DNA of 52,184 bases from a virus, in IMG/VR virus record IMGVR_UViG_3300036852_000533, positions 1 through 52,184 of that record; one strand, written 5' to 3'. Below, one piece after another: positions 1,383-21,841 of this stretch. A program made the position numbers and the translations under genes. Below the pieces are notes generated by a model that saw only the letters and a list, made by a program, of their open reading frames with translations, was not told where the DNA came from and did not search any database. How positions within the stretch are numbered: position 1 is the stretch's first letter; each line of letters starts with the position of its first letter.

Positions 1383-1697
1383 ATGGACACTCAAAGTGCA
1401 AAGCCGATCGGAGCGCAGGACAATGGCGCGGTTCGCTGCACTGTCGGGTTAGGCGCACGGAGTGAGTCAGCAACGAGTAAATGGCGAAGAAACAACCCAG
1501 AGAGGGCACTGGCCAAACACCTGAAAGATGAAGCGAAGAAAAACGAACGAAAACACGAAGCGGGCGGGCGCGCAGAAACCCAAACGAAATGTGTCGAGTG
1601 CGGGATGGTCTTTGACCGCACGGAGGCACACGTCCGAGGCTTCCGAATCCTCAAAGGAAACCGGGGCTACAACTGCATCTGCGATGAGTGCGCCTAA
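1383..1697 (+). CDS. Cassette-borne zinc-ribbon protein, paralogue of 8685-8990
   Basis: This 104-residue protein has a basic central part and a C-terminal zinc ribbon: CVEC at about residues 75-78 and CICDECA at the end, with FDRTEAHVRG between. It shares its whole plan with the cassette gene at 8685-8990 (GLGAR, NPE, KK..E, FxRxxAHxRGxR, CDECA end). The stop codon TAA lies inside the attC core box GCCTAAC at 1692-1698. The N-terminal codons read through an attC right arm at 1430-1454. It is inserted, with the next gene, between ERF and the exonuclease. A 14-codon reading frame (1337-1381) fills the gap after ERF. Function unknown; DNA or RNA binding is possible. Confidence 0.7.
   Translation: MDTQSAKPIGAQDNGAVRCTVGLGARSESATSKWRRNNPERALAKHLKDEAKKNERKHEAGGRAETQTKCVECGMVFDRTEAHVRGFRILKGNRGYNCICDECA
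1430..1454 (-). other. attC half-site (arm with core box only)
   Basis: The plus-strand sequence ends in GGGTTAGGC and, on the other strand, reads as a core box GCCTAAC followed by an arm resembling those of complete attC sites at 8756-8762 and 9404-9410. No complementary second arm with its own core box could be found in the 100 bases to the left. I read this as an attC that has lost one half, marking the left edge of a captured segment next to ERF. Confidence 0.55.
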
Positions 1698-1797
1698 CGT
1701 CGCATTAAGCCACGCCGATGAAACCTGAACCGTCCAATCTCGCCGCGAACCCTGTGCCGCCAACGCCCCCGGCGCTGGCTTCAGTAAGTGGTTATGC
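1692..1797 (-). other. attC: attC recombination site (integron cassette site)
   Basis: Core boxes GCCTAAC (1692-1698) and GTTATGC (1791-1797) flank two arms. Read from the core boxes inward, the left arm is 8 nt, then AAGCCA, then CGCC. The right arm on the other strand is 8 nt, an extra G, AAGCCA, an extra G, then CGCC. Two extrahelical bases six pairs apart, eight nt from the core box, is the textbook attC geometry. They sit in the right-hand arm, so the site is oriented on the minus strand. The loop holds the ATG of the next gene. Confidence 0.85.
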
Positions 1798-2023
1798 GGT
1801 GGGTGACAAAGTGACGGCAACGAGAAACATCTGGAGTGCTGCCAACGAGGACTCGCCCATGTATCTCTGCGCTTATCGTGGCGACATCTTAGAAATCCGC
1901 CGACTTGGTTCGTGTGGGTGGGCCTGCTACGTCGCACATCCCGAAAAAGAATCCGGCCCAATGTTTGGTGTCGAGGCTGGTGAAATCAAACCGCATAACG
2001 CAAAATCACAAAAGGGCAAATGA
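1718..2023 (+). CDS. Cassette gene starting in an attC loop
   Basis: This 101-residue protein starts at ATG 1718, inside the loop of the attC at 1692-1797. Its first 27 residues are the Pro/Ala-rich translation of the attC arm. A GTG at 1799, just after the core box, is an alternative start giving a compact 74-residue protein that begins VGDKVTATRN. The body resembles a small beta-barrel: a 'VGDKV' strand, a 'GDILEIRRLG' turn and 'GWACYVAH'. A box GCATAAC at 1993-1999 near the 3' end looks like the next attC boundary. The stop overlaps the exonuclease start by four bases. Family not recognised. Confidence 0.6.
   Translation: MKPEPSNLAANPVPPTPPALASVSGYAVGDKVTATRNIWSAANEDSPMYLCAYRGDILEIRRLGSCGWACYVAHPEKESGPMFGVEAGEIKPHNAKSQKGK
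1993..2017 (-). other. Isolated attC core box and possible arm
   Basis: The heptamer GCATAAC at 1993-1999 is the complement of the GTTATGC boxes at 1791 and 6143 and sits just before the end of a cassette gene, where such boxes lie elsewhere. No complementary arm is visible downstream, where the exonuclease gene begins. It is best read as a remnant of the second cassette boundary. Confidence 0.35.
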
Positions 2024-4597: not shown

Positions 4598-4882
4598 ATG
4601 AACGCGACAATCTATTTCATCTACGAACTGGAAGCCGCGAGAAGCTTCTCGTGCAAGAACACCGTCGAGGACATCGAGGGAGAAATCCGCTACTGGCTCG
4701 GCAAGAGTCCAGGAATGTTCAAAGACCAGCTCAGGGAAATCGTCGTCGTGCCGGATGACCAGAAGAAGGACTGGATGTATGTGCTCCAAAAGCTGGAGGA
4801 CGAACAATCCGAGGCTGAGGAACGCCATCGCCTCAAAGCCGAGAAACGCGAATATGACCGGCTGAAGGCGAAGTATGGCTAA
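4598..4882 (+). CDS. Hypothetical protein with charged C-terminal helix
   Basis: The ATG at 4598 gives 94 residues; a TTG further left would add nine. The N-terminal part reads as a small alpha/beta fold (ATIYFIYELEAA), the C-terminal 35 residues as a highly charged helix (LEDEQSEAEERHRLKAEK). A CCGCAG triplicate repeat lies just upstream (4542-4560). The end overlaps the next gene by eight bases. No family was recognised. Confidence 0.6.
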   Translation: MNATIYFIYELEAARSFSCKNTVEDIEGEIRYWLGKSPGMFKDQLREIVVVPDDQKKDWMYVLQKLEDEQSEAEERHRLKAEKREYDRLKAKYG

Positions 4883-5723
4883 TGACCAAGCTCAAGCAAT
4901 GACCACCGGACCCACAACGACCACTGAACTACCGGCGATCCCGCCGTTGGCTGGGCGGACTGATTCGACTGATTCTCGTCCGAATCATAAAACACTCGTC
5001 AGGAAATCCGCCGCATGGCTGCGCAACCGGAAAAATTGCAATGTGGTGTTCGCGGAACTGGCGACGCAAAATAACGAGACGCCGGATGTCATCGGCTTCC
5101 ACGGTGCCGGCGGATCAATACTCGTGGAATGTAAAACCAGCCGCGCCGATTTCCTCGCGGACAAAAACAAAATCTTCCGGCACCACGAGGAAATGGGAAT
5201 GGGCGATGCGCGATACTTCGCCGCACCCAAAGGACTGCTCAAGCCGGACGAACTCCCGGAAGGATGGGGGCTGCTGGAAATTACTGACGCTGATGGCAGA
5301 ACCTACGAAACCAAACAGGCGACTTACAAGGAGGCGAACAAGCGTGCCGAGGTCAAGATGCTCATGTCGGCAATTCGCCGTCTGGAAATCTCGACGGCAG
5401 TGTTCGTGCGCGCCGAGGAGGAGAACAGTGCGCGCCCAGACATGGTGGCGCGATGGGCGAAAATCTGCCACGAAGCACACGACCGCGATGAAGCATGGAT
5501 AGCCATGCTCCGCCGCGAAGGAATAAAAGCCGCGCACCCTGACGACGGCTGGGTGGACAGGGAGAATAACACCGTCCACTTCGCGTATCCGCAATTCAAT
5601 GATGGCGCTGGCATCGGTGACAAAATCGCTCTCGGCTGGGCATCCGACAAATGGCGCATCGTGACAATCACGGGCCGGGCCGATGGGCTGCTATTAGAAC
5701 GTTGGGCCTTTTCGTCGAACTGA
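4875..5723 (+). CDS. PD-(D/E)XK nuclease, MmcB-like
   Basis: This 282-residue protein carries a PD-(D/E)XK nuclease core: P70-D71 in TPDVIGF and E85-C-K87 in SILVECKTSRADF, followed by a GDARYFAAPKGLL strand and PEGWGLLEI. This pattern resembles MmcB-type DNA-repair nucleases. Residues 1-34 are a Thr/Pro-rich leader that begins ANDQAQ, the translation of a sequence close to the left arm of the attC at 8985, so the start may have been reshaped by a lost cassette junction. A separate C-terminal domain (about 205-282) is unassigned. It overlaps the gene before it by eight bases. Confidence 0.7.
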   Translation: MANDQAQAMTTGPTTTTELPAIPPLAGRTDSTDSRPNHKTLVRKSAAWLRNRKNCNVVFAELATQNNETPDVIGFHGAGGSILVECKTSRADFLADKNKIFRHHEEMGMGDARYFAAPKGLLKPDELPEGWGLLEITDADGRTYETKQATYKEANKRAEVKMLMSAIRRLEISTAVFVRAEEENSARPDMVARWAKICHEAHDRDEAWIAMLRREGIKAAHPDDGWVDRENNTVHFAYPQFNDGAGIGDKIALGWASDKWRIVTITGRADGLLLERWAFSSN

Positions 5724-5730
5724 TAACATC

Positions 5731-5826
5731 ATGGGAAAGATTGCAACAAAAGCTCTGAGCTTCCGTGAGCGCCGCGCCGAATTCTCGACGCGCATCATGG
5801 CGAATGGCCGGCAGAACGCGCGATAA
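5731..5826 (+). CDS. Short basic peptide, 31 aa
   Basis: An ATG at 5731, eight bases after the nuclease stop, opens 31 codons (MGKIATKALSFRERRAEF...). It ends four bases before the next ATG. Spacing and plus-strand orientation fit the operon, but the peptide is short, Arg/Ala-rich and without known relatives. Confidence 0.4.
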   Translation: MGKIATKALSFRERRAEFSTRIMANGRQNAR

Positions 5827-5829
5827 GTT

Positions 5830-6045
5830 ATGAAACTGGTAAACGCCGGCGACAGAGTGGCGGAAGCCTCATTCGCCCCAGCGTCCGAACTACCAACCAG
5901 CATGAATGGCCGATGCCCTCACTGCAACGACTGGACATGGGAACGGCTGTGGGGTGCTCTTGTCCAATGTCTTCAATGCGGGAGGCGCTACTACCACCGG
6001 GGCTGCGAACGGCGAATGCAGCACGACGACAAGCTGAGGCACTGA
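5830..6045 (+). CDS. Small zinc-finger protein
   Basis: This 71-residue protein has a four-Cys site: CPHC at about residues 29-32 and CLQC at 47-50, with a Trp-rich linker and a Cys/His tail (YYHRGCERRMQHDD). A shorter start at residue 25 (MNGRCPHC) would remove a leader of low complexity. Its 3' end overlaps the attC at 6021-6149. It is the last gene before the cassette array. Zinc binding is inferred from spacing; role unknown. Confidence 0.6.
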   Translation: MKLVNAGDRVAEASFAPASELPTSMNGRCPHCNDWTWERLWGALVQCLQCGRRYYHRGCERRMQHDDKLRH

Positions 6046-6149
6046 GGCGATGCAAACGAAAATTTTACTCTGCAAGAAATGCGGAAAATATCTGGACGTA
6101 TGCAAATGCGCAGGGGCAAAGCCTCAGTTGCATCCAACGGGTGTTATGC
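6021..6149 (-). other. attC: attC recombination site
   Basis: The right core box is GTTATGC (6143-6149); the left box is the weaker GCACGAC (6021-6027). The inner arms GCACTGAGGC (6039-6048) and GCCTCAGTTGC (6121-6131) are complementary except for one extra base in the right arm, the position used by the extrahelical base in the other sites. The left outer arm is only partly complementary. The loop of about 70 bases carries the start codon of the next gene. Confidence 0.65.
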
Positions 6150-6340
6150 GGCCACACCATAGAAAGAATATAGTACGCGAAGCAAAATCTGAGATCGAGT
6201 GGTGTAAGGATCAGATTGCGCTGACTCAACTCGGCGGTGAAACAAAGCCATACACGCGAGCCGAATGGATAGTCTGTATGAATCGAAGAATCGAGGCGAA
6301 TCAACAAATACTCAAAAAGCACAATGCTCTGGCCGCATAA
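6050..6340 (+). CDS. Cassette-borne small zinc-ribbon protein
   Basis: This 96-residue protein begins in the attC loop. Its N-terminus holds CKKC and a further C-x-C (KYLDVCKCAG), a rubredoxin-like or zinc-knuckle site. Translation then continues in frame through the attC right arm and into a helical C-terminal part (IVREAKSEIEWCKDQI, ANQQILKKHN). The stop TAA lies in the core box GCATAAC at 6335-6341, so the gene ends exactly at a cassette boundary. An alternative ATG at 6147 would give a 63-residue product without the zinc site. Function unknown. Confidence 0.6.
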   Translation: MQTKILLCKKCGKYLDVCKCAGAKPQLHPTGVMRPHHRKNIVREAKSEIEWCKDQIALTQLGGETKPYTRAEWIVCMNRRIEANQQILKKHNALAA

Positions 6341-6355
6341 CGAACCCATGACAAA
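6335..6355 (-). other. attC arm remnant
   Basis: GCATAAC (6335-6341) encodes the stop of the previous gene and is the complement of the GTTATGC boxes. The following 15 bases have the spacing of an arm, but no partner arm was found in the next 250 bases. A cassette boundary seems to survive here as half a site. Confidence 0.4.
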
Positions 6356-6929
6356 AAAAGAATGTATCATCAAAGCCTGTCAGGTAATCCGCAAGCGGGT
6401 GCGCTTCGATGGCGCGTCAATCTCGCTGCCGACGACTCCGTTTCCGGGTAATGACACGAAGGCAATCCGTGAGGCAACGCGCCTCTACGTGGAATCGTGG
6501 ATCGTGCCACTACTCGACTCCATCGAATCCGGCGACATGACCCGGATCCGACAATACTACGAATTTGAGAAGGGCCACAAAATGGAGTCGCCCAACGTAA
6601 AGGTGGGCGGTCAGAGTGGGCGCGAGAATATGAAAAATGAAACTCCGAGAAGCGATGCTGCCGAAGAACGAACACGGCTGAACTACGAGATGTCTCGCGA
6701 GTGCGGCGACCCGCCATATCCCGGTGCTGACATGGCAGACTTTGCTCGTGGGCTGGAACGCGAACTGAATGAGGTGCTGGCGGTGTTCCGCCACCGGCAT
6801 GTGAACAACGGCGAGAATGATGGCTGTAAAAAGTGCGGCCTCGATCTGCGCCACGAGATACATGAGCGCGTGGCCGCGCAGCCCAACGGCCCGGATGAGC
6901 GGCCCGGCGCTAACACCCCAAAACTCTGA
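6348..6929 (+). CDS. Apparent fusion of two cassette genes
   Basis: The reading frame codes for 193 residues. The first 80 or so (MTKKECIIKACQVIRKRV... to EFEKGHK) form one helical domain. Then comes a stretch translated from GTCGCCCAACGT at 6587-6598, which matches the attC core and arm at 9597-9608. A second unit starts at MKNETPRSDAAE (ATG 6630). It has the PR-S/T-DA and ADFARGLERELNEVL pattern of a widespread small phage protein, and ends in a CKKCGLDLRH metal site. I infer that loss of one attC half joined two cassette genes in frame. The internal ATG could also be used separately. Confidence 0.55.
   Translation: MTKKECIIKACQVIRKRVRFDGASISLPTTPFPGNDTKAIREATRLYVESWIVPLLDSIESGDMTRIRQYYEFEKGHKMESPNVKVGGQSGRENMKNETPRSDAAEERTRLNYEMSRECGDPPYPGADMADFARGLERELNEVLAVFRHRHVNNGENDGCKKCGLDLRHEIHERVAAQPNGPDERPGANTPKL
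6589..6611 (-). other. attC remnant inside a reading frame
   Basis: The core box GCCCAAC (6589-6595) with the preceding GT and following GT is shared with the intact site at 9599-9605. The downstream sequence can only form a short stem (GCCCAAC with GGTGGGC). No second full arm is present. It marks the seam of the fused gene at 6348-6929. Confidence 0.4.
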
Positions 6930-6991
6930 CATGCAAAACGACCTTCTAACTGCTGACGCTCCGCCGGGTTCACACCAGCGCATGGTTGTGC
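6908..6991 (-). other. attC: attC recombination site, diverged
   Basis: The right arm ends in CAGCGCATGGTTGTGCC, almost the same as the right arms of the sites at 9104 and 9404, with core GTTGTGC at 6985-6991. The left core is CGCTAAC (6908-6914). Arm pairing is weak: only a TCTGA/TGTGA block aligns at the expected distance, with the usual extra A in the right arm. It lies in the right place, between two small genes. Confidence 0.55.
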
Positions 6992-7004
6992 CCATACTAC
7001 CGAC

Positions 7005-7319
7005 ATGCACACAAACGAAAAACTAATCTTCGAGGAAATTACAAATCCGAATGTCCTGCCAAAACTCAAGCTGGATGTCGTGGAATGTCCCGACTGTCAC
7101 CACCGCATTGCAGTGCCGGTGAAATATACTGACTGGCAAGAAACCGCTGAACGCTATCGGCGCGCATACGAAGCAATGATGACCAAACTCGGCGTGCTGC
7201 TCAAAGAGGCCGGTGAACAATTCGACGTGCCGTTGGTGGAATACTTCGACACCGAACGGCAACTGATGATCCAAATGCTCAACGAAATAATCGCTGGACT
7301 CGATAAACGCGATGAATAG
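7005..7319 (+). CDS. Cassette-borne small protein with CxxC site
   Basis: This 104-residue protein has a CPDCHH motif at about residues 29-34 followed by a long helical region (ETAERYRRAYEAMMTKLG, TERQLMIQMLNEII). One CxxC pair plus two His could bind a metal as a monomer or dimer. The stop codon TAG sits directly before the core box GCACAAC (7320-7326), so the gene fills its cassette (boundaries about 6914 and 7325). Family not recognised. Confidence 0.6.
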   Translation: MHTNEKLIFEEITNPNVLPKLKLDVVECPDCHHRIAVPVKYTDWQETAERYRRAYEAMMTKLGVLLKEAGEQFDVPLVEYFDTERQLMIQMLNEIIAGLDKRDE

Positions 7320-7454
7320 GCACAACGCCCGAACTGAGCGACCGGAGGCGAAACATGAATAGCGATATACGCATGATGAATGTGGAGGATCAGCAAGACC
7401 TAAAAACTTTCGAGCAGGACGAGCCTCCAGTTCGCTCCAGTGAGCTTTTTAGAT
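7320..7454 (-). other. attC: attC recombination site
   Basis: The left core is GCACAAC (7320-7326); the right core is TTTAGAT (7448-7454), one base away from the standard GTTAGAT. Left arm GAGCGACCGGAGGC pairs with right arm GCCTCCAGTTCGCTC, with one extra A in the right arm. The left arm also supplies GGAGG, a strong ribosome-binding site eight bases before the ATG of the next gene at 7355. Confidence 0.65.
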
Positions 7455-7729
7455 GCGTCGAAGTATCAAGTCAACTAAAAGACAATCTGACCGTGATGAA
7501 ACGGCTAATCGGCGACAAATGGCAAGAGTCGTCGAAGGAATATCGGGTCATCCTGCTCGCAGTGATGGCCGCAAGCGGAGACACCAACCCGCTAGGCTGC
7601 GCGATACCGATGGCAAAGGAAATGTCCGAACGAGGACACAGCCCGCTCATGCTGCTGGCCGTCGCAACGGAAATGAGCGAAGCATCTGACGTAGAGCGCA
7701 GCGACGGCGCTCAGAAAGACTCACGATGA
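7355..7729 (+). CDS. Cassette gene translated through attC
   Basis: This 124-residue protein begins in the attC loop behind GGAGG and is read through the right arm (residues about 25-34) into its main domain. The domain looks helical: QLKDNLTVMKRLIGDKW, then EYRVILLAVMAASGDTNPLGCAIPMAKEM. The last codons run into the next attC (SDVERSDGAQ is the translation of its arm). No family was recognised, though a helical 'MAKEMSERG' style is common in phage accessory proteins. Confidence 0.5.
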   Translation: MNSDIRMMNVEDQQDLKTFEQDEPPVRSSELFRCVEVSSQLKDNLTVMKRLIGDKWQESSKEYRVILLAVMAASGDTNPLGCAIPMAKEMSERGHSPLMLLAVATEMSEASDVERSDGAQKDSR

Positions 7730-7774
7730 AAAAGAAAACACAACAGCGCCGTTCGCTGCCGCGACGGGCTATGA
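7684..7774 (-). other. attC: attC recombination site with decayed core boxes
   Basis: Arms CAGCGACGGCGCT (7699-7711) and AGCGCCGTTCGCTG (7745-7758) pair perfectly except for one extra A in the right arm. The left core ATCTGAC (7684-7690) differs from the expected by one transition (complement GTCAGAT instead of GTTAGAT). The right core TCATAGC complement lacks the AAC. The stem is kept while the recombination boxes have mutated, which suggests a site that no longer recombines. Confidence 0.6.
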
Positions 7775-7980
7775 CTCCGAAGGGTTGGCGGCGACTGCTC
7801 GTGGGAGAGATGACCAGAAAAGGCGACTGGCTGGAAAATGTCGGAGATGGTCCGTGGACACGTCTGCGCGTCCGTTACTGCCTTAAAGAAGTAGAAGGTG
7901 ATTGGCGTGCCATCATCCGCCGGACGACCTCTCGCAAAAGGAGTCCTAACGCAGACTTCAGACACCCCGCCACACCATGA
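7726..7980 (+). CDS. Cassette gene, small basic protein
   Basis: The ATG at 7726 lies in the loop of the attC at 7684-7774 and the first 16 residues (basic, MKKKTQQRRSLPRRAM) are encoded by its right half. The body is 84 residues with a WRRLLVGEM helix, a GDWLENVGDGPWTRLRVRY beta-rich stretch and an Arg-rich end. The stop lies in the loop of the next attC. Function unknown; the charge suggests nucleic-acid contact. Confidence 0.5.
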   Translation: MKKKTQQRRSLPRRAMTPKGWRRLLVGEMTRKGDWLENVGDGPWTRLRVRYCLKEVEGDWRAIIRRTTSRKRSPNADFRHPATP

Positions 7981-8031
7981 CTACCGAACTTAAAATGACG
8001 CGCGATGGCGGGGTTGTCTGGACTCTCTAAC
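7944..8031 (-). other. attC: attC recombination site
   Basis: The left core TCCTAAC (7944-7950) is followed by CAGACACCCCGCCA (7959-7972), which pairs with TGGCGGGGTTGTCTG (8006-8020) with one extra base in the right arm. The right core position (around 8022-8031) is decayed and contains CTCTAACATG. A 17-codon open frame runs from ATG 7978 through the right arm. Confidence 0.65.
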
Positions 8032-8322
8032 ATGAACGCAACATATCCAACCGTCGAAGAGCAGGAGAAACTAGAACCTGCCAGAACTGTGCCCCGCTGT
8101 CGTGAATCGCAACGCTGGCTGAAAGAAGCCGACAAAATCATCGCGGCATACCCGGAGAAACACCGCGAGTATCACGCAATGGTGCTGCGGCATACCTACG
8201 AGAACGGGCTGTATGACACGAACTGTGCAATCAAATCTCTCATGGCGATAAAGGAACTCATCATCAAGGGTGAATACTCTGACGAGCGCGTGCTGGAACT
8301 GATAAACGAAGGGCTGCAATGA
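8032..8322 (+). CDS. Cassette gene, helical protein, 96 aa
   Basis: The ATG at 8032 directly follows the attC right end; an upstream ATG at 8005 within the arm would add nine residues. The protein is almost wholly helical (REYHAMVLRHTYENGLYDTN, AIKSLMAIKELIIKG) with no motif I can place. It overlaps the next gene by four bases (ATGA at 8319), the first of three coupled genes sharing one cassette of about 720 bp (7950-8670). Confidence 0.55.
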   Translation: MNATYPTVEEQEKLEPARTVPRCRESQRWLKEADKIIAAYPEKHREYHAMVLRHTYENGLYDTNCAIKSLMAIKELIIKGEYSDERVLELINEGLQ

Positions 8323-8522
8323 ATCTCGTGATGCTCATAGAAGAAGGATGCCGGGAAGTCTATGTGAACCCGGAAAGCGTCGAGTCAGTCCAAAATGCCG
8401 CAGGCGGAAAAGACTCCATCTTGTATCTGAAAACCGGGCGAAAGCTGATAGTCACCGGGTCAAGTGGCGATGTAATGTGCAAACTCAAAGGCATACGCTC
8501 GTGGAGAGACGCCCTGAAATGA
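8319..8522 (+). CDS. Cassette gene, small beta-rich protein, 67 aa
   Basis: This 67-residue protein is predicted as alternating strands: NLVMLIEEG, REVYVNPESVESV, DSILYLKTGRKLIVTG. That pattern fits a small LytTR- or DUF-like beta fold, but the match is too short to name. It is coupled to both neighbours by ATGA-type overlaps at 8319 and 8519. Confidence 0.55.
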   Translation: MNLVMLIEEGCREVYVNPESVESVQNAAGGKDSILYLKTGRKLIVTGSSGDVMCKLKGIRSWRDALK

Positions 8523-8692
8523 AAACCTACACTGCCGAAGATTTCAAACGCTGGGGCGCGAAGGGCGGTGCAAAGTCCAAGCGTGTGCTGACCAAAGCAC
8601 AGGCCAAGGCGATGGTCGCCGCACGGGAAAAGAAACTTCGGAAAACCAAGCGCGTGGCCCGGCGTGCTAACGCAGAGGTCAGCCATGAGTGA
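8519..8692 (+). CDS. Small KGG-type basic protein, 57 aa
   Basis: The protein starts MKTYTAEDFKRWGAKGGAKS and continues with Lys/Arg-rich helices (KAQAKAMVAAREKKLRK). The W/I-GAKGGKA pattern recurs at 10458-10613 (IGSKGGKATG) and in many small phage and plasmid proteins, probably a small nucleic-acid binding helix. The start overlaps the previous stop by four bases. The 3' end runs into the attC at 8665-8762. Confidence 0.55.
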   Translation: MKTYTAEDFKRWGAKGGAKSKRVLTKAQAKAMVAAREKKLRKTKRVARRANAEVSHE

Positions 8693-8762
8693 CGCGCCCG
8701 CGACATCCGAATCCACGCAAACCGTCAACGCGGCACTCATTGGCTGCACCGACGGGTTAGGC
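8665..8762 (-). other. attC: attC recombination site with two extrahelical bases
   Basis: Core boxes TGCTAAC (8665-8671) and GTTAGGC (8756-8762). Left arm after the core: 8 nt, CAGCCA, TGAGTG. Right arm on the other strand: 8 nt, extra G, CAGCCA, extra A, TGAGTG. This is the exact 8 + extra + 6 + extra layout of classical attC sites. The left arm carries GAGG and the ATG (8685) of the following gene. Confidence 0.85.
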
Positions 8763-8990
8763 GCACGGGATTGGAAGGCATACCGGCGCATCTGGAACAA
8801 GACGCACCCTGAAAGCATCAAGTCAGCACAGAAAAAACTGAGAACCAAAAAACATGAACAAGGCGAAATCGTCAACCAAGCCGAGTGCAAATGCACCGTA
8901 TGCAAAAGCGTCTTCAACCGCGATGACGCGCACCTGCGGGGATACCGATTCCTGTCGCGCTTCGTATGCGTGTGCGACGAGTGCGCCTAA
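8685..8990 (+). CDS. Cassette-borne zinc-ribbon protein (CDECA family)
   Basis: This protein (101 aa from ATG 8685; GAGG lies about seven bases upstream) starts in the attC arm and reads through it (residues about 1-30). Next come GLGARDWKAYRRIW, a Lys-rich helix and a zinc ribbon: CKCTVC, FNRDDAHLRGYRFL, CVCDECA. The stop TAA is part of the core box GCCTAAC (8985-8991), so the gene exactly fills the cassette 8671-8990. Its paralogue lies at 1383-1697 in the recombination operon and ends in the same way. Function unknown; the fold suggests nucleic-acid or protein binding. Confidence 0.7.
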   Translation: MSDAPATSESTQTVNAALIGCTDGLGARDWKAYRRIWNKTHPESIKSAQKKLRTKKHEQGEIVNQAECKCTVCKSVFNRDDAHLRGYRFLSRFVCVCDECA

Positions 8991-9110
8991 CGACCAAGCT
9001 CAGCGACCTGTGCCGGAGACAGGCGTTGAGCGGAAAGGAAACGATGAATGAACCAACAGCGGTCGTGCGTGAAAAGCGCGGCACAGGTTCTCTGGAGCGC
9101 ATGGTTAGGT
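8985..9110 (-). other. attC: attC recombination site
   Basis: Core boxes GCCTAAC (8985-8991) and GTTAGGT (9104-9110). The left arm CAGCGACCTGTGCC pairs with the right arm GGCACAGGTTCTCTG, with one extra base in the right arm and a mismatch. The loop contains a purine-rich ribosome site (GGAAAGGA) and the ATG at 9045. The right core box overlaps a second possible start (ATGGTTAGG at 9101). Confidence 0.82.
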
Positions 9111-9373
9111 GTGCGTCGTGCAAATACTGGGGAACTAAACCCGGTGAACGCGGCAATCCTCGCCTGCGGTCCTGCAACCATCCAAAGCATGTGATGGGAT
9201 ACCAGTCCGCCGCCGCCGTGCCAGATGACGGAATGATAATCGAATCGGATGAGGGATGGGGCATCGAAGTTGGGCCTCTCTTTGGGTGCGTGAATGGTGA
9301 GGCGAGCACACCTAACGGTGCGCTATGCGACGGGGATGAGCCGCCGCAGACGTTGAAATCGAAACAATCGTGA
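9045..9373 (+). CDS. Cassette-borne zinc-ribbon protein (phage C-x2-C family)
   Basis: From ATG 9045, which has AAGGA five bases upstream, the protein has 109 residues; from ATG 9101, next to the core box, 90. The domain is CASCKYWGTKPGERGN, then CNHPKH and later EVGPLFGCVNGE. This spacing of Cys, aromatic and final FGC is typical of a large family of small phage and mobile-element zinc proteins. The C-terminal 20 residues are encoded by the next attC (stop in its loop). Zinc binding likely, role unknown. Confidence 0.7.
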
Positions 9374-9410
9374 ACGGCTCATCCCCGTTCGCTGCAGCGC
9401 ATGGTTAGGC
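9310..9410 (-). other. attC: attC recombination site, best-paired copy
   Basis: Core boxes ACCTAAC (9310-9316) and GTTAGGC (9404-9410). Left arm: GCGCTATGCGACGGGG; right arm on the other strand: GCGCTGCAGCGAACGGGG. The arms continue to pair through GATGAGCC, more than 20 pairs in all. Two extra bases (G and A, six apart) lie in the right arm. The loop is about 33 bases. Both core boxes fit the consensus, so this site looks fully competent. Confidence 0.88.
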
Positions 9411-9436
9411 GACTGGAATAATTTTTGGAATAATTT

Positions 9437-9649
9437 ATGAACGAGAAAGAGCAAACCGATCACTTCGCCAACGATGTGGACAACCTGGTAGAACGTTACC
9501 GGAGCGAATACGAGATGAGCTACGCCGCCGTCGTGGGCGTGCTCCAAATGAAAATCCATCTACTGTGCGACGAAGCATCGGAGCGTGGTGATGAAGTCGC
9601 CCAACGTCCGCATAAGCGATGGCGGACACGAGACGTGAAAATTAACTGA
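9437..9649 (+). CDS. Cassette gene, conserved phage-type helical protein
   Basis: This 70-residue protein contains VDNLVERYRSEYEMSYAAVV and GVLQMKIHLLCDEASERGDE, a helical pair seen in small proteins of phage and host accessory regions. The end (VAQRPHKRWR) is the translation of the next attC, and the stop is in its loop. A tandem GGAATAATTT repeat (9415-9436) lies just upstream of the ATG and may carry a regulatory signal. Function unknown. Confidence 0.6.
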   Translation: MNEKEQTDHFANDVDNLVERYRSEYEMSYAAVVGVLQMKIHLLCDEASERGDEVAQRPHKRWRTRDVKIN

Positions 9650-9687
9650 CGGCATCGCCCGCCATTCGCTTCATGCGGTGGTTAGGC
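9599..9687 (-). other. attC: attC recombination site with two extrahelical bases
   Basis: Core boxes GCCCAAC (9599-9605) and GTTAGGC (9681-9687), 89 bp overall. Left arm: CCGCATAAGCGATGGCGG; right arm on the other strand: CCGCATGAAGCGAATGGCGG. The two extra bases (G, A) are separated by AAGCGA and lie eight bases from the core box, the canonical layout. They lie in the right arm, which places the site on the minus strand. Confidence 0.88.
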
Positions 9688-9708
9688 ATCCGTCGAACCA
9701 ACAAAAAC

Positions 9709-9924
9709 ATGATACATATAATCGAATCCTTCGCCTGCGGACTCGCGTTCGCAATGGGAATAACCTCGTGGTTCTTCATCCGCGACTTGGCGACCGTGAA
9801 AGGTCGCGAAGAACTGAAAAAAGAAATGCACGAACACGCCAAGCGCGTCGAGGACAGGCTGGCTGTCCAAGTCTCGACGATGCTTGTCTGTCTCGACGAA
9901 ATCAAGAAGCGCAAGGATGCCTAA
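9709..9924 (+). CDS. Cassette gene, small membrane-anchored coiled-coil protein
   Basis: The ATG at 9709 gives 71 residues; an in-frame ATG at 9673 within the attC arm is an alternative. One N-terminal transmembrane helix (FACGLAFAMGITSWFFIRD) is followed by a charged helix (KKEMHEHAKRVEDRL) and a DEIKKRKDA end. The stop TAA is part of the core box GCCTAAC at 9919-9925, so the gene ends exactly at a cassette boundary. It resembles small phage membrane proteins of unknown role. Confidence 0.6.
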   Translation: MIHIIESFACGLAFAMGITSWFFIRDLATVKGREELKKEMHEHAKRVEDRLAVQVSTMLVCLDEIKKRKDA

Positions 9925-10023
9925 CGAAAAAGCTGACCGATGAGAGGGAGCGCGCCAACGACGTTCGATTCGAGAGTGAGCCAAACGCGCTCCCTCTCAT
10001 TCGTGTCCAGCGCATTGTTCCCC
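9919..10023 (-). other. attC: attC recombination site nearest the integrase
   Basis: The left core is GCCTAAC (9919-9925). The right core reads GTTCCCC (10017-10023), where GTTRRRY would be expected. Arms pair over TGAGAGGGAGCGCG (left, 9940-9953) and its complement, 14 bases, then continue with extra bases in the right arm. On the minus-strand reading the well-kept GCCTAAC complement (GTTAGGC) is the cleaved box and the variable one is R'', which tolerates change. An open frame runs from ATG 9940 through the right arm into the 10084 gene. Confidence 0.8.
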
Positions 10024-10044
10024 GACTGGTCGAAAAAGAAAAGC

Positions 10045-10073
10045 TTGACACCACAAGCGGCTTGTGATACAAT
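10045..10073 (+). promoter_or_regulatory. Sigma70-type promoter with palindromic operator
   Basis: TTGACA (10045-10050), a 17-base spacer and TACAAT (10068-10073) make a near-consensus promoter pointing at the 10084 gene and the integrase. The spacer contains the perfect inverted repeat CACAAG-CGG-CTTGTG (10052-10066), well placed for a repressor that would block RNA polymerase. The expected start of transcription (about 10080) is four bases from the ATG at 10084, so the message would be leaderless or nearly so. It lies directly between the last attC and the integrase operon. Confidence 0.75.
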
Positions 10074-10083
10074 GCCAGTGAAG

Positions 10084-10461
10084 ATGAAAACTGAACTCAT
10101 CCAAATCGGGCTGACCGCCGCACAGGTGGACTCAGCGGACTGGCTACTCGGCTGCCCTCTCTTTTACGATGCCGCCGAATCACTCGCCCACAACTGGGAC
10201 GAGACACCGGAGCGCGCCGCCGCAATCGTGGCCGCTGCAAAACAAGTGAAGCGTGACGGGCGGACTCTGACGCTGCCAAACGACCATGAGGTAATCGAAT
10301 ACCTGCACCAATACGCCGAGCAACTGGCGGACATGAGCGCAAAGGAATACCTCGATGAACTCGTGGGCAAAGGCATCCCGCACCGTGAAGCTCAATGCAA
10401 GGTCAACGCCGCCGTGCGGTCTGCGGAATCGCTCGCGGAGAAAATCGCCTGCCACCTATGA
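10084..10461 (+). CDS. Hypothetical protein of the integrase operon
   Basis: The start at 10084 was chosen because the ATG at 10072 lies in the -10 element; 125 residues result. The protein is helical and acidic (YDAAESLAHNWDETPERAAAI, AAKQVKRDGR, EYLHQYAEQLADMSAKEYLDEL) with no recognised family. It overlaps the KGG-type gene by four bases (ATGA at 10458) and so forms an operon with it and the integrase. The open frame continues upstream to ATG 9940 in the attC, which would give 173 residues. Confidence 0.6.
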   Translation: MKTELIQIGLTAAQVDSADWLLGCPLFYDAAESLAHNWDETPERAAAIVAAAKQVKRDGRTLTLPNDHEVIEYLHQYAEQLADMSAKEYLDELVGKGIPHREAQCKVNAAVRSAESLAEKIACHL

Positions 10462-10613
10462 ATCCCGAAGCTCGCAAATACCTCGCCAGCATCGGAAGCA
10501 AAGGCGGGAAGGCAACCGGGACAAGCAAGCGGCGTGGGTCTGCCGCCTACTACAAACGAATCTCAAAGCTCGCCGCGAAAGCACGAAAGGCGAAGTCGGG
10601 GAACTCTTATTAA
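10458..10613 (+). CDS. Small KGG-type basic protein, 51 aa
   Basis: The protein reads MNPEARKYLASIGSKGGKAT followed by a basic tail (KRRGSAAYYKRISKLAAKARKAKSG). It shares the I/W-G-x-K-G-G-K motif with 8519-8692. Its ATG overlaps the stop of the previous gene. Thirteen bases separate its stop from the integrase ATG. Role unknown; the charge suggests DNA binding. Confidence 0.6.
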   Translation: MNPEARKYLASIGSKGGKATGTSKRRGSAAYYKRISKLAAKARKAKSGNSY

Positions 10614-10626
10614 GCATCATCCACGC

Positions 10627-11601
10627 ATGTTTAAGGATAATTTCATAACGGTTGCCAGAGCACACGGGTTGCGACTCCAGACCGAACGCGCTTATTACGG
10701 CGCGGCAGCCAAGCATATTAAGTGGCTTGGAGCGAGGTCTGCAAAGGATTTGGAGCGTGATCCGACGAAACAATTCCGGGATTACCTCACCATGCTGGCC
10801 AATGTGAATGGCGATAGAAGCGAAGGCGACGAAGGCATTTCAGCTTCCAGCCAGAATTTGGCATTTCACGCATTGAGATTTCTCTACGAAAAAGTAATCG
10901 GCATCCAGCTTGGAGACCTTTCAAACATTCCGCGCGCAAGCGGGCACGAAAGAATTGTGGATGTGCCCCCTGACGATGTGGCGATAAAACTCGTGCAATC
11001 AGTGCCGGGCGTTAACGGAGTCGCGCTGCGCTTGATCTATGGCACTGCCGGACGGCTCAATGACATTCTGAGATTGCGAGTTAAGGATTTGGACTTCCGC
11101 AGGAAACTCGTGAGCGTGCAGGAGAGCAAGGGTGGTAAATCACGCCTCGTCCCAATGCCGCCTAGTCTGATTCCAGAACTTTCCGCGCTGGTAAAGGAGC
11201 GGGAAAGGATTCACGAGGCAGACTTGGCGGACGGATTTGGGTGGGTTCACATGCCGGGGATGCTGGCCAAAAAATATCCTGGAGAGGAAAACTCGCCCGG
11301 CTGGCAGTACCTGTTCGCATCAGCAACACTTTCCAAAGACCCCATCAGCGGAAAAACGGGGAGGCATCATATCTTTGACGTGACATTGCAACGTGCCTTC
11401 GCCAATGCGCGGCGGAAGTTGCGAATCAAACGGCACTACACTATTCACGGACTCCGCCACGCTGCGGCTCAATGGATGGAGCGCAACGGGGTGACGCGCT
11501 CAACGATTCAGGAAATTCTCGGGCACGAAAATTCGAGTACGACCGACCGTTATCTCCTATCTGGGAAACGCAGCGTGGCGAACGTGCCGACGCCAATCTA
11601 G
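10627..11601 (+). CDS. intI: Integron integrase (IntI-type tyrosine recombinase)
   Basis: This recombinase (324 aa) has every catalytic residue of the family: R143 in TAGRLND, K171 in SKGGKSR, H274 and R277 in HGLRH, H300 in LGHE, and Y309 in TTDRY. Between the catalytic Lys and HxxR lies the segment unique to integron integrases, about residues 195-230: HEADLADGFG, the pair AKKYP, and GWQYLF. That insert recognises attC hairpins. The N-terminal core-binding domain has the usual TERAYYG and SSQNLAFHALRFLYEKV patterns. Length and residue positions are within a few residues of classical IntI proteins. ATG 10627 was chosen; a start at 10534 would overlap the previous gene. It would catalyse attC x attC and attI x attC exchange. 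Confidence 0.93.
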   Translation: MFKDNFITVARAHGLRLQTERAYYGAAAKHIKWLGARSAKDLERDPTKQFRDYLTMLANVNGDRSEGDEGISASSQNLAFHALRFLYEKVIGIQLGDLSNIPRASGHERIVDVPPDDVAIKLVQSVPGVNGVALRLIYGTAGRLNDILRLRVKDLDFRRKLVSVQESKGGKSRLVPMPPSLIPELSALVKERERIHEADLADGFGWVHMPGMLAKKYPGEENSPGWQYLFASATLSKDPISGKTGRHHIFDVTLQRAFANARRKLRIKRHYTIHGLRHAAAQWMERNGVTRSTIQEILGHENSSTTDRYLLSGKRSVANVPTPI

Positions 11602-19444: not shown

Positions 19445-19452
19445 TTTAGATT
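19430..19452 (+). terminator. Hairpin terminator between convergent genes
   Basis: ATCAGC-CGTT-GCTGAT (19430-19445) is a perfect six-base stem with a four-base loop, followed by TTAGATT. It lies at the very end of the 19046-19444 gene and just before the leftward glycosyltransferase gene. The T-tract is short, so efficiency may be modest. Confidence 0.55.
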
Positions 19453-21841
19453 ACTTCACCCCATCCGACAACCCCGTCAGCCCCGCCTTTTCCGCCAGCA
19501 CAGGAATCTTTTTTGGACAGGCTTCGTCGTATTCACGTTTGAGCCGGATGTAATTCGGATCCGTGATCGTATCCGCCAGCTTTTCCATCGCCCGCTTCAA
19601 ACTGGCGTCCGCAGCCGCGTAATTGCTGCTGTGCCGGAAAAAGGTGACGCAGTTGCTTTGGTCGCCACGCCGGTAAATGTTGGGCGGTTTTCGCCATTCC
19701 GGCCACTCATATTCACCATCCCAAGTGGCGAGCATGACCTTGCAGCCCTTCTTGTAAGCGAGCTTCCAGAGAGCATTTCGCCCATGTTCAAAATCGTAAC
19801 GTTGCAGTTTGGTGTTCACCTTGATCGGATAATTGGCCAGCAGGCTGGGGGAACACCAGAAACCGGACGTGTTCAAATGCGGGCTAACCTCGTAAGTGGC
19901 CTGACTGCCGTACAATCCCGGGCCGTGCTTTTGCCAGACACTCACCATGCGTTGCAACCATCCCTGCCGTTGTACGAAAGCGGTGCCCCCAAGACAAACC
20001 ATCATGTCCTCTGGAATCGTTTTGGACACGGCGATGAAAGCGCCGATGTCCCACCCGGAATCGTCATGCTGATAAAAACTGACATTGGGCAGCGTCAACA
20101 GGAGCTTGCGCATCTCCTGAGTCGGAGGCCTGCCTTGACAAACCACGATGATCCGATGCCCGACTCCACCTGGATTTTTCAGGCAGGAGAATACAAACCG
20201 CCGCGTCAATTCAATGTGCTCCTGATCGTGTGGGACGTGGACGTACACGACCACCACGGAAGGCGCCAGCACCGTCGGAAGTTCACCATTGAAACAGTCA
20301 AAATTGCCGGGAATCCGGGTGGCATTGTGGTCAAGATATGCGCCCCACTTGCGCTCGAAAATTGCAGTGGATTGCCTCACAAAATCCATCAGCGGATGGC
20401 CAAGTGTTTTCGTGCTCCGCCCTTCATCGTGCAAACCGCGGGCGAGCGGCGTGTACATGACGCGATAACCTGCACGCCGGATTGCCAGACATAGCGAATT
20501 GTCCTCGCAGTACAAAAAGAAGTCCCTGTCCCATTGCCCAGCTTTGTAAAACGCTTGCCTGCGGGTGAGCATAACAGCCCCGCGCACGTCCTCCAATTCC
20601 AATGGTTCCTTGAAAGTCGGCTCCCGTTTCCCCCAATCAATGTTTTCCCATCCGCGCGCATTGGGTTTTCTTAGACAACCTCCGGTTTGAATCCTGCCAT
20701 CTTGAAATCTCAACTGGCATCCCACAATCCCCACATTCGGCGCTGCCACTTTGAGCATCTTTTGTACGGCATCCACACCAAGCTCCACATCGTCATTGCA
20801 GAATAGAATCCACCGACCATTTGTGTGCTTGGCTCCAAAATTACAGTTCCGGCCAAAGCCGGTGTTTGATTCCGAGGAGCACACGTAATTCACCTTGGGA
20901 TGTTTCAATGCCTGCTGCGGCAGGATGCCAGTCTGGTCCCGGCAGACCACGATTTCACCGACCTGCGGAATCAACGCAGTCAGACATCGGTTTAGAATCG
21001 CCGCCTCGGGACGATAAATCGGCACCACGGCGGATACATCCTCAGCCACGGATGTATTGAAGTCGGTCGGAGGACTTCCATTCAATGCCTCTTGGGCCGA
21101 TTGAAGCAACTGGCCTTTGCGATTCGGGAATTCCCCGTATGTGCAATAAAACCTGAAATGGTTGGACGGCGCGCTTCCATGCCATCGCGTTGGAACATCC
21201 GACAGCAACGCAATGGCCGGCGTCGTGGACGCCTTGCAGAGATGCAGGTGTATGGTGTCAATCGTGACGATCAACTTTGCGGCATCGTAGAGCGCCAGCA
21301 AATCCAACGGATGCGGCAACCGAATTTCAGAGAGACGAAGGATGCGATGTGTTGTTCCGAATGTTTCACGAATCAGGGAGACCAGCTCATCCATAAACCT
21401 GAACGGGCTGCTTTGGGAATAATCGCCTATCAGAATCGCAGGCTTTTCACCAAGATGTTGCTTCGCCAGCGCGCCGGCGTTTGCCGGTCTTGGCAACACC
21501 AAGGGCAGCGTGTCCCACAGATGCAAACAGCCTGCACGATCCCATTGGTCAAGCTGGAAAGATGACCGCCTTTTTTGAATTGGAAAATCCCGACCGAAGG
21601 TGGACAGGACAACCACGCTTGGGAATCTGGCCCTGGCGAATTTTACGGCGCCGGCCAGATCGCTCCAATGGCCATCGAAAATAACCGGAGTGAGATAGGG
21701 AATGTCGCTCACGAGCGGAGCAAATTCCTGAGCCGAGATCAGTGCTGGTTTCTGGCCGGTGCGGTTGAATTCAAACAGCAGAATCGGAAGCACCCCGAGA
21801 ATGTCGCCGTGCTTTCCAAGCTGGAGATAGGTCTTGGGCAT
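19451..21841 (-). CDS. Three-domain glycosyltransferase
   Basis: This protein (796 aa) is built from three parts. Residues 1-255 resemble a GT-B heptosyltransferase-type domain (LGKHGDILGVLPIL at the start, AKLIVTIDTIHLHLCKAS near 205). Residues about 270-530 form a GT2 domain: AVVPIYRPEAAILNRC, the nucleotide-sugar motif FCNDDVELG, and the distal FFLYCEDNSLCLAIRRAGY. Residues 540-730 look like another GT-A-like domain (VVYVHVPHDQEH, MVCLGGTAFVQRQGWL). It sits in the head gene operon between capsid and GroES-like genes. It could glycosylate virion proteins or modify the host surface. Confidence 0.75.
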   Translation of the reverse strand: MPKTYLQLGKHGDILGVLPILLFEFNRTGQKPALISAQEFAPLVSDIPYLTPVIFDGHWSDLAGAVKFARARFPSVVVLSTFGRDFPIQKRRSSFQLDQWDRAGCLHLWDTLPLVLPRPANAGALAKQHLGEKPAILIGDYSQSSPFRFMDELVSLIRETFGTTHRILRLSEIRLPHPLDLLALYDAAKLIVTIDTIHLHLCKASTTPAIALLSDVPTRWHGSAPSNHFRFYCTYGEFPNRKGQLLQSAQEALNGSPPTDFNTSVAEDVSAVVPIYRPEAAILNRCLTALIPQVGEIVVCRDQTGILPQQALKHPKVNYVCSSESNTGFGRNCNFGAKHTNGRWILFCNDDVELGVDAVQKMLKVAAPNVGIVGCQLRFQDGRIQTGGCLRKPNARGWENIDWGKREPTFKEPLELEDVRGAVMLTRRQAFYKAGQWDRDFFLYCEDNSLCLAIRRAGYRVMYTPLARGLHDEGRSTKTLGHPLMDFVRQSTAIFERKWGAYLDHNATRIPGNFDCFNGELPTVLAPSVVVVYVHVPHDQEHIELTRRFVFSCLKNPGGVGHRIIVVCQGRPPTQEMRKLLLTLPNVSFYQHDDSGWDIGAFIAVSKTIPEDMMVCLGGTAFVQRQGWLQRMVSVWQKHGPGLYGSQATYEVSPHLNTSGFWCSPSLLANYPIKVNTKLQRYDFEHGRNALWKLAYKKGCKVMLATWDGEYEWPEWRKPPNIYRRGDQSNCVTFFRHSSNYAAADASLKRAMEKLADTITDPNYIRLKREYDEACPKKIPVLAEKAGLTGLSDGVK

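Follow-up and report, generated by a model that had tools for sequence, protein, structure and literature searches.

Integrons are gene-capture platforms of bacteria: the integrase IntI binds and cuts the bottom strands of attC sites in their folded form and joins them at attI, and the asymmetry of attC serves to insert each cassette in the right direction for one promoter. Can a phage own such a platform, and in which direction would its cassettes then read? We addressed this question in the virus record IMGVR_UViG_3300036852_000533, hereafter the window (the whole stretch analysed, 52,184 nucleotides), in which an integron-type integrase gene, intI, lies beside an array of attC sites and small genes. 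The explanation that we favour, and hold with good confidence, is that this is a genuine integron within the early operon of a phage, with its cassettes reversed and likely forming a swappable store of counter-defence genes.

An integron on a circular phage genome

Firstly, we assigned the integrase. The intI open reading frame (ORF) is full length, running from an ATG at 10627 to a stop at 11601. Its product scores 231 bits against the integron integrase profile TIGR02249, under the curated cut-off of 265, as compared with 60 bits for XerC and 52 bits for XerD, and its top sequence match in the PDB is VchIntIA of Vibrio cholerae, an integron integrase (2a3v, E 6e-35). Foldseek with an AlphaFold model (pLDDT, the predicted local distance difference test, 90) ranked the same structure first by a wide margin (template modelling score, TM, 0.78-0.83), followed by XerA/Xer (TM 0.42-0.52). 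In an alignment of five proteins (the window IntI and four others), R143, K171, H274, R277, H300 and Y309 are all conserved without exception, and the IntI-specific segment aligns with that of other IntI. A previous sequence-only reading, made by a model, had named these residues and this segment and had called for an IntI-specific profile search; on each count its assignment to the IntI type holds, within the limit set by the cut-off.

Secondly, we searched for attC sites with two covariance models into which no window sequence entered. R1 was built from 15 attC (bacterial, plasmid and one Shewanella-phage site) and R2 was trained on 113 R1 matches, which came almost entirely from loci of bacterial integrons, plus a few from plasmids and known phages. 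R2 returned five matches with E < 0.004, all on the minus strand: four strong sites in the array and one at 1692-1797 (Table 1). These five have R and L boxes and extrahelical bases. Four weaker sites in the array reach 9-11 bits each, on the same strand and in register, the highest-scoring R2 match beyond the arrays being 11 bits; the low score of the one nearest attI is due to its odd R'' box. Thus, the covariance search that the sequence-only reading had proposed gave five matches above background, and eight of the ten attC sites that it had listed are matched by the models, four of them weakly, while the models lend no support to those at 6021 and 7944. Near the former lies a mirrored pair of R boxes, GTTATGC at 6143 and GCATAAC at 6335. 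The plus-strand orientation that it had given to attC is wrong, since the extrahelical-base pattern and both models exclude it. The attC strand, the site at 1692-1797 with its second mini-array, the candidate attI and the reversed gene polarity described below are all absent from that reading. A strict RYYYAAC/GTTRRRY regular-expression scan was dropped, as even bacterial loci gave too few matches, and an Rfam scan of the window returned nothing (whether Rfam holds an attC family was not checked).

Thirdly, we examined the molecule that carries these elements. The first and last 127 bases of the record are exactly alike, giving a circular genome of 52,057 bp, the size that had been proposed. 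A terminase and phage replication genes share this molecule with the integron, marking it as a tailed phage, and phage genes flank the main array on both sides. This confirms that the window is a phage genome with IntI plus an attC array, as had been claimed. Homologous modules are present in a distant cousin phage, which has no intI and, within the portion scanned, no attC; a single-protein scan of IMG/VR gave no close relatives. Repetitive attC arrays can break assemblies, so that a chimera of a bacterial integron and phage sequence has to be weighed. Given the circular closure, the phage genes on either side, a second mini-array within the phage recombination module and the recurrence of this arrangement across many independent contigs, we regard a chimera as highly unlikely.

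Layout of the array and polarity of its cassettes

The attC top strand is the minus strand, intI is on the plus strand, the candidate attI lies just before intI and the array extends leftward from it; the layout is thus canonical, with attC opposite in strand to intI, an arrangement that R1 also gave for almost every bacterial locus scored. The candidate attI box, 23 bases 5' of the intI start codon, exactly mirrors the R'' box of the first attC, and this pair (10017/10598) would place the cassette-attI junction at about 10603, just ahead of the start codon. In all, cassette ends are mirrored exactly in eight pairs (1448/1692, 1791/1993, 6143/6335, 6985/7320, 8756/8985, 9104/9310, 9681/9919 and 10017/10598) and with one mismatch in a ninth (9404/9599), as expected if cassettes leave the array as circles. 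The strongest attC sites stand in the attI-proximal half of the array, and the most degenerate lie at the greatest distance from attI, as expected if new cassettes enter at attI. IntI would recombine folded attC bottom strands at an attI beside its own start codon, so that new cassettes would enter next to intI and older ones decay toward the left.

The cassette genes of the window occupy the plus strand: they run against attC and toward the candidate attI and intI, a direction that they share with intI and with the early genes at 0.3-5.7 kb. We called polarity with a codon model trained on the long genes of each contig itself. In the window, five cassettes are reversed relative to attC, none is co-oriented and three are undecided. 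The same model found 67 reversed and 6 co-oriented cassettes in phages, as against 5 reversed and 22 co-oriented in bacteria. Measured against intI, with duplicates and bacterial-like contigs omitted, 68 of 72 decided phage cassettes run with the integrase gene versus 7 of 23 bacterial ones (Fisher 1.5e-9), and counted per contig the figures are 29 of 31 versus 6 of 16 (7e-5); these p-values are indicative only, because cassettes that share a contig are not independent observations, polarity is undecided for many bacterial ones, and contig exclusions and thresholds were set after the first tallies. Pfam families point the same way: the 78 reversed ORFs of phage cassettes gave 15 families, including C5, Dam, N6_N4 and D12 methyltransferases, Mom, Lar restriction alleviation and PAPS reductase, and the 58 co-oriented ORFs gave one. 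A simpler test on the longest ORF gave 62 co-oriented and 7 reversed in bacteria and a mixed result in phages (28 co-oriented, 43 reversed), which we attribute to long shadow ORFs in contigs of high GC (guanine plus cytosine) content; being confounded in this way, it was replaced by the codon model and Pfam.

In one viral locus (L068) and, by our own scan, in Virus Rctr41k (KX853513), the array itself is turned, so that the genes still run with intI; one transcript direction seems to be the constant. Cassette genes oriented for expression from the Pc promoter in attI, a typical though not strictly defining integron trait, are not found in the window, whose integron is therefore a variant. As the genes are reversed, insertion would place them on the strand of intI and the phage early genes, in the phage transcript. 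Expression would then come from read-through of that transcript or from promoters of the cassettes rather than from Pc.

Relatives, turnover and competing explanations

Two profile scans of IMG/VR for relatives of IntI yielded overlapping sets of 178 and 99 confirmed stretches, and dozens of viral contigs with intI and attC arrays stand among the loci L010-L089 and L190-L257. In the loci of the first scan, the attC model made 191 matches; these are again opposite in strand to intI, save in L068 and at one site of L056. Of 50 contigs tested, 28 also carry a terminase (9 by phrog_2, 20 by phrog_15, one shared; the two sets of 50 differ by one entry), and wider phage modules were examined in four contigs. 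An exact attC-motif scan of IMG/VR gave 40 contigs.

In a tree to which about 800 Pseudomonadota genomes contributed their best matches, one group beside bacterial IntI (Shimodaira-Hasegawa-like approximate likelihood ratio test, SH-aLRT, 94) unites 51 viral IntI with one from a Burkholderiales-genome contig, and nine others form a second, viral-only group (SH-aLRT 99). These separate groups suggest that phages probably took up IntI more than once. The sequence-only reading had asked for such a tree: the window IntI does group with five other viral IntI (SH-aLRT 86), in a placement that is weak because its branch is very long. The sole non-viral member of the phage clade, on a contig of 73,687 bases (L322), is 92% identical to a phage IntI.

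The position of the phage clade beside bacterial IntI means that capture took place at some time, and such capture accounts for the complete phage integrons already known (Qi et al. 2023, PMC9892861). The window could likewise hold a fragment of a bacterial chromosomal integron, now a passenger, as in the Vibrio and Shewanella phages of that paper. We find this distinctly improbable: the window IntI shares no more than about 39% identity with any other IntI found; its genes are reversed relative to attC, unlike those of bacterial arrays; and its cassettes occupy two places in the genome, with paralogues (the mini-array gene 1383-1697 and the cassette gene 8685-8990 are 40% identical over 89 amino acids).

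Turnover is visible among relatives. In three contig pairs the flanks are near-identical but the sets of whole cassettes are not, and the breakpoints fall at G/TT, implying that the integrons of these relatives are active. L046 and L053 differ by a single cassette of about 521 bp that follows attI directly; the R'' box of this cassette, GCCCAAC, mirrors its own start GTTGGGC, and another cassette lies beyond it. L056 and L060 have different cassettes between attI and one shared cassette, and L023 and L024 differ by a cassette that an attC precedes and a further cassette follows. A terminase is on both contigs of the second pair and was not found on those of the other two, which IMG/VR classes as viral. 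The earlier proposal that the phage collects or shuffles cassettes is thus upheld for relatives; the pairs do not extend it to this genome, where current activity, and recombination by its own integrase, are inferred.

Several points weigh against a working integron in the window. Its IntI stays below the TIGR02249 cut-off and sits on a very long branch of the tree, so that the enzyme may have changed or lost its activity; the array has degenerated in its left half; a non-consensus box (GTTCCCC) occurs in both the proposed attI and the first attC; no near-identical phage is known that could show turnover in this genome; and none of its cassette proteins has a recognised domain or anything above the Pfam cut-off. 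The degenerate left-hand attC and an IntI with a long branch and changed C-terminal motifs would fit a decayed phage integron, whose array is real, whose integrase no longer recombines and whose genes are simply kept. We judge this rather unlikely, as the six catalytic residues and the predicted fold are intact, the ORF is full length, and the right-hand attC are intact with mirrored boxes. IntI might also act mainly as the lysogeny integrase of the phage, inserting the circular genome at attI or attC of a host integron, with cassettes as by-products: the genome has no other tyrosine recombinase (the search did not extend to serine integrases), and Vibrio phage Va_90-11-286_p16 is reported to be flanked by attC at its excision site (PMC9892861). 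No prophage form with attC junctions was found, and gene polarity and the turnover in relatives point to cassette traffic, making this role quite improbable.

A genuine phage integron therefore remains our explanation. Since its relatives in many tailed phages take up and drop cassettes, and bear genes for anti-restriction and DNA modification, a swappable counter-defence store is its likely role, which the cassettes of the window phage itself may share.

The features of the window are collected in Table 1. In some cassettes the stop codon TAA lies inside the R box (GCC TAA C). Promoter-like sites are no more numerous in the region than in shuffles. Two small basic proteins (8519-8692 and 10458-10613) have a GAKGG or GSKGG motif, with a marginal Pfam KGG match for the second only (E 0.04). 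At 11598-48000, besides terminase and replication genes, most large proteins are without a PHROG match and presumably include virion proteins; the minus-strand ORF 19451-21841 has a glycosyltransferase domain.

Table 1. Integron features of the window (positions in the 52,184-base record)
Feature	Position	Strand	Evidence and remarks
Second mini-array, cassette-type genes 1383-1697 and 1718-2023	1383..2023	+	Between erf-like and exonuclease genes
attC of second mini-array	1692..1797	-	R2 29.1 bits, E 6e-5; mirrored boxes 1448/1692, 1791/1993
Older, degenerate array part, about nine plus-strand ORFs	6144..8670	+	Boxes 6143/6335, 6985/7320
Degenerate attC	6881..6991	-	R1 15.1 bits; R2 11.1 bits
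Degenerate attC	7320..7454	-	R1 9.7 bits; R2 11.4 bits
Degenerate attC	7684..7774	-	R1 8.2 bits; R2 11.0 bits as 7690-7768
attC	8665..8762	-	R2 32.7 bits, E 8e-6
Cassette, ORF 8685-8990	8671..8990	+	Boxes 8756/8985; paralogue in mini-array
attC	8985..9110	-	R2 41.3 bits, E 6e-8
Cassette, ORF 9101-9373 (Cys-rich)	8991..9315	+	Boxes 9104/9310
attC	9310..9410	-	R2 21.8 bits, E 0.0035; folding free energy (dG) -34
Cassette, ORF 9437-9649	9316..9604	+	Boxes 9404/9599, one mismatch
attC	9599..9687	-	R2 27.6 bits, E 1.4e-4
Cassette, ORF 9709-9924 (small protein, membrane helix predicted by eye)	9605..9924	+	Boxes 9681/9919
attC nearest attI, weak to model	9919..10023	-	R2 9.3 bits; long stem, dG -23
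Cassette adjoining attI, ORFs 10072-10461 and 10458-10613	9925..10603	+	Boxes 10017/10598; coding score favours +
Promoter-like site, TTGACA-17-TACAAT	10045..10073	+	In first cassette, toward intI; 11 of 12, extended -10
Putative attI crossover box, GTTCCCC on minus	10598..10604	-	Exact mirror of R'' box GGGGAAC of first attC (minus, 10017-10023)
intI, integron-type tyrosine recombinase, 324 amino acids	10627..11601	+	TIGR02249; 2a3v by sequence and fold; six catalytic residues

Comparison with known integrons

The sequence-only reading knew of no standard description of such a phage. Complete integrons were in fact reported in temperate phages in 2023 (Qi et al. 2023, PMC9892861): that paper gives three complete integrons, one intI without cassettes and 17 clusters of attC sites without intI (CALINs) in phages, and recombination of phage attC with IntI1. 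In the parts consulted, it describes neither an IntI lineage of phages nor a reversed polarity nor turnover in nature, so that to this extent the claim stands; these three points are new as far as searched, within open-access PMC without preprints, a scope that leaves priority uncertain.

We lean slightly toward a broader proposal, that phages own a separate integron class with several IntI lineages, cassettes of mirror polarity and a counter-defence pool that is exchanged among phages and incompatible in expression with bacterial cassettes. If so, a cassette of bacterial origin would be antisense once inserted in a phage, and vice versa. The direction rule would depend on the transcript of the carrier, and phages would have a cassette pool apart from the bacterial one and a mechanism to swap anti-restriction genes.

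With bacterial chromosomal and class 1 integrons, the window shares the IntI fold and catalytic residues, attC with two extrahelical bases, the array opposite the intI strand and, in relatives only, insertion at G/TT. It differs in that its cassette genes are reversed to attC and co-directional with intI, it lies on a phage, it has no Pc-driven array and its IntI is very divergent. The phage integrons of PMC9892861 are similar in having a complete integron or attC clusters in phage genomes and methyltransferase cassettes; the complete ones resemble or come from those of host bacteria (Vibrio, Shewanella, class 1 on P1), and the others are CALINs lacking intI. Rctr41k, a phage of a methane-oxidising enrichment that is not named in Qi et al., gave no R2 match at E 0.05. 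It is similar in its intI-like gene, annotated xerD, and attC-like array (4680-9434, our locus L005). By our own scan, its attC, annotated genes and intI are all on one strand; it thus differs from the window in that intI, rather than the genes, is turned relative to the array.

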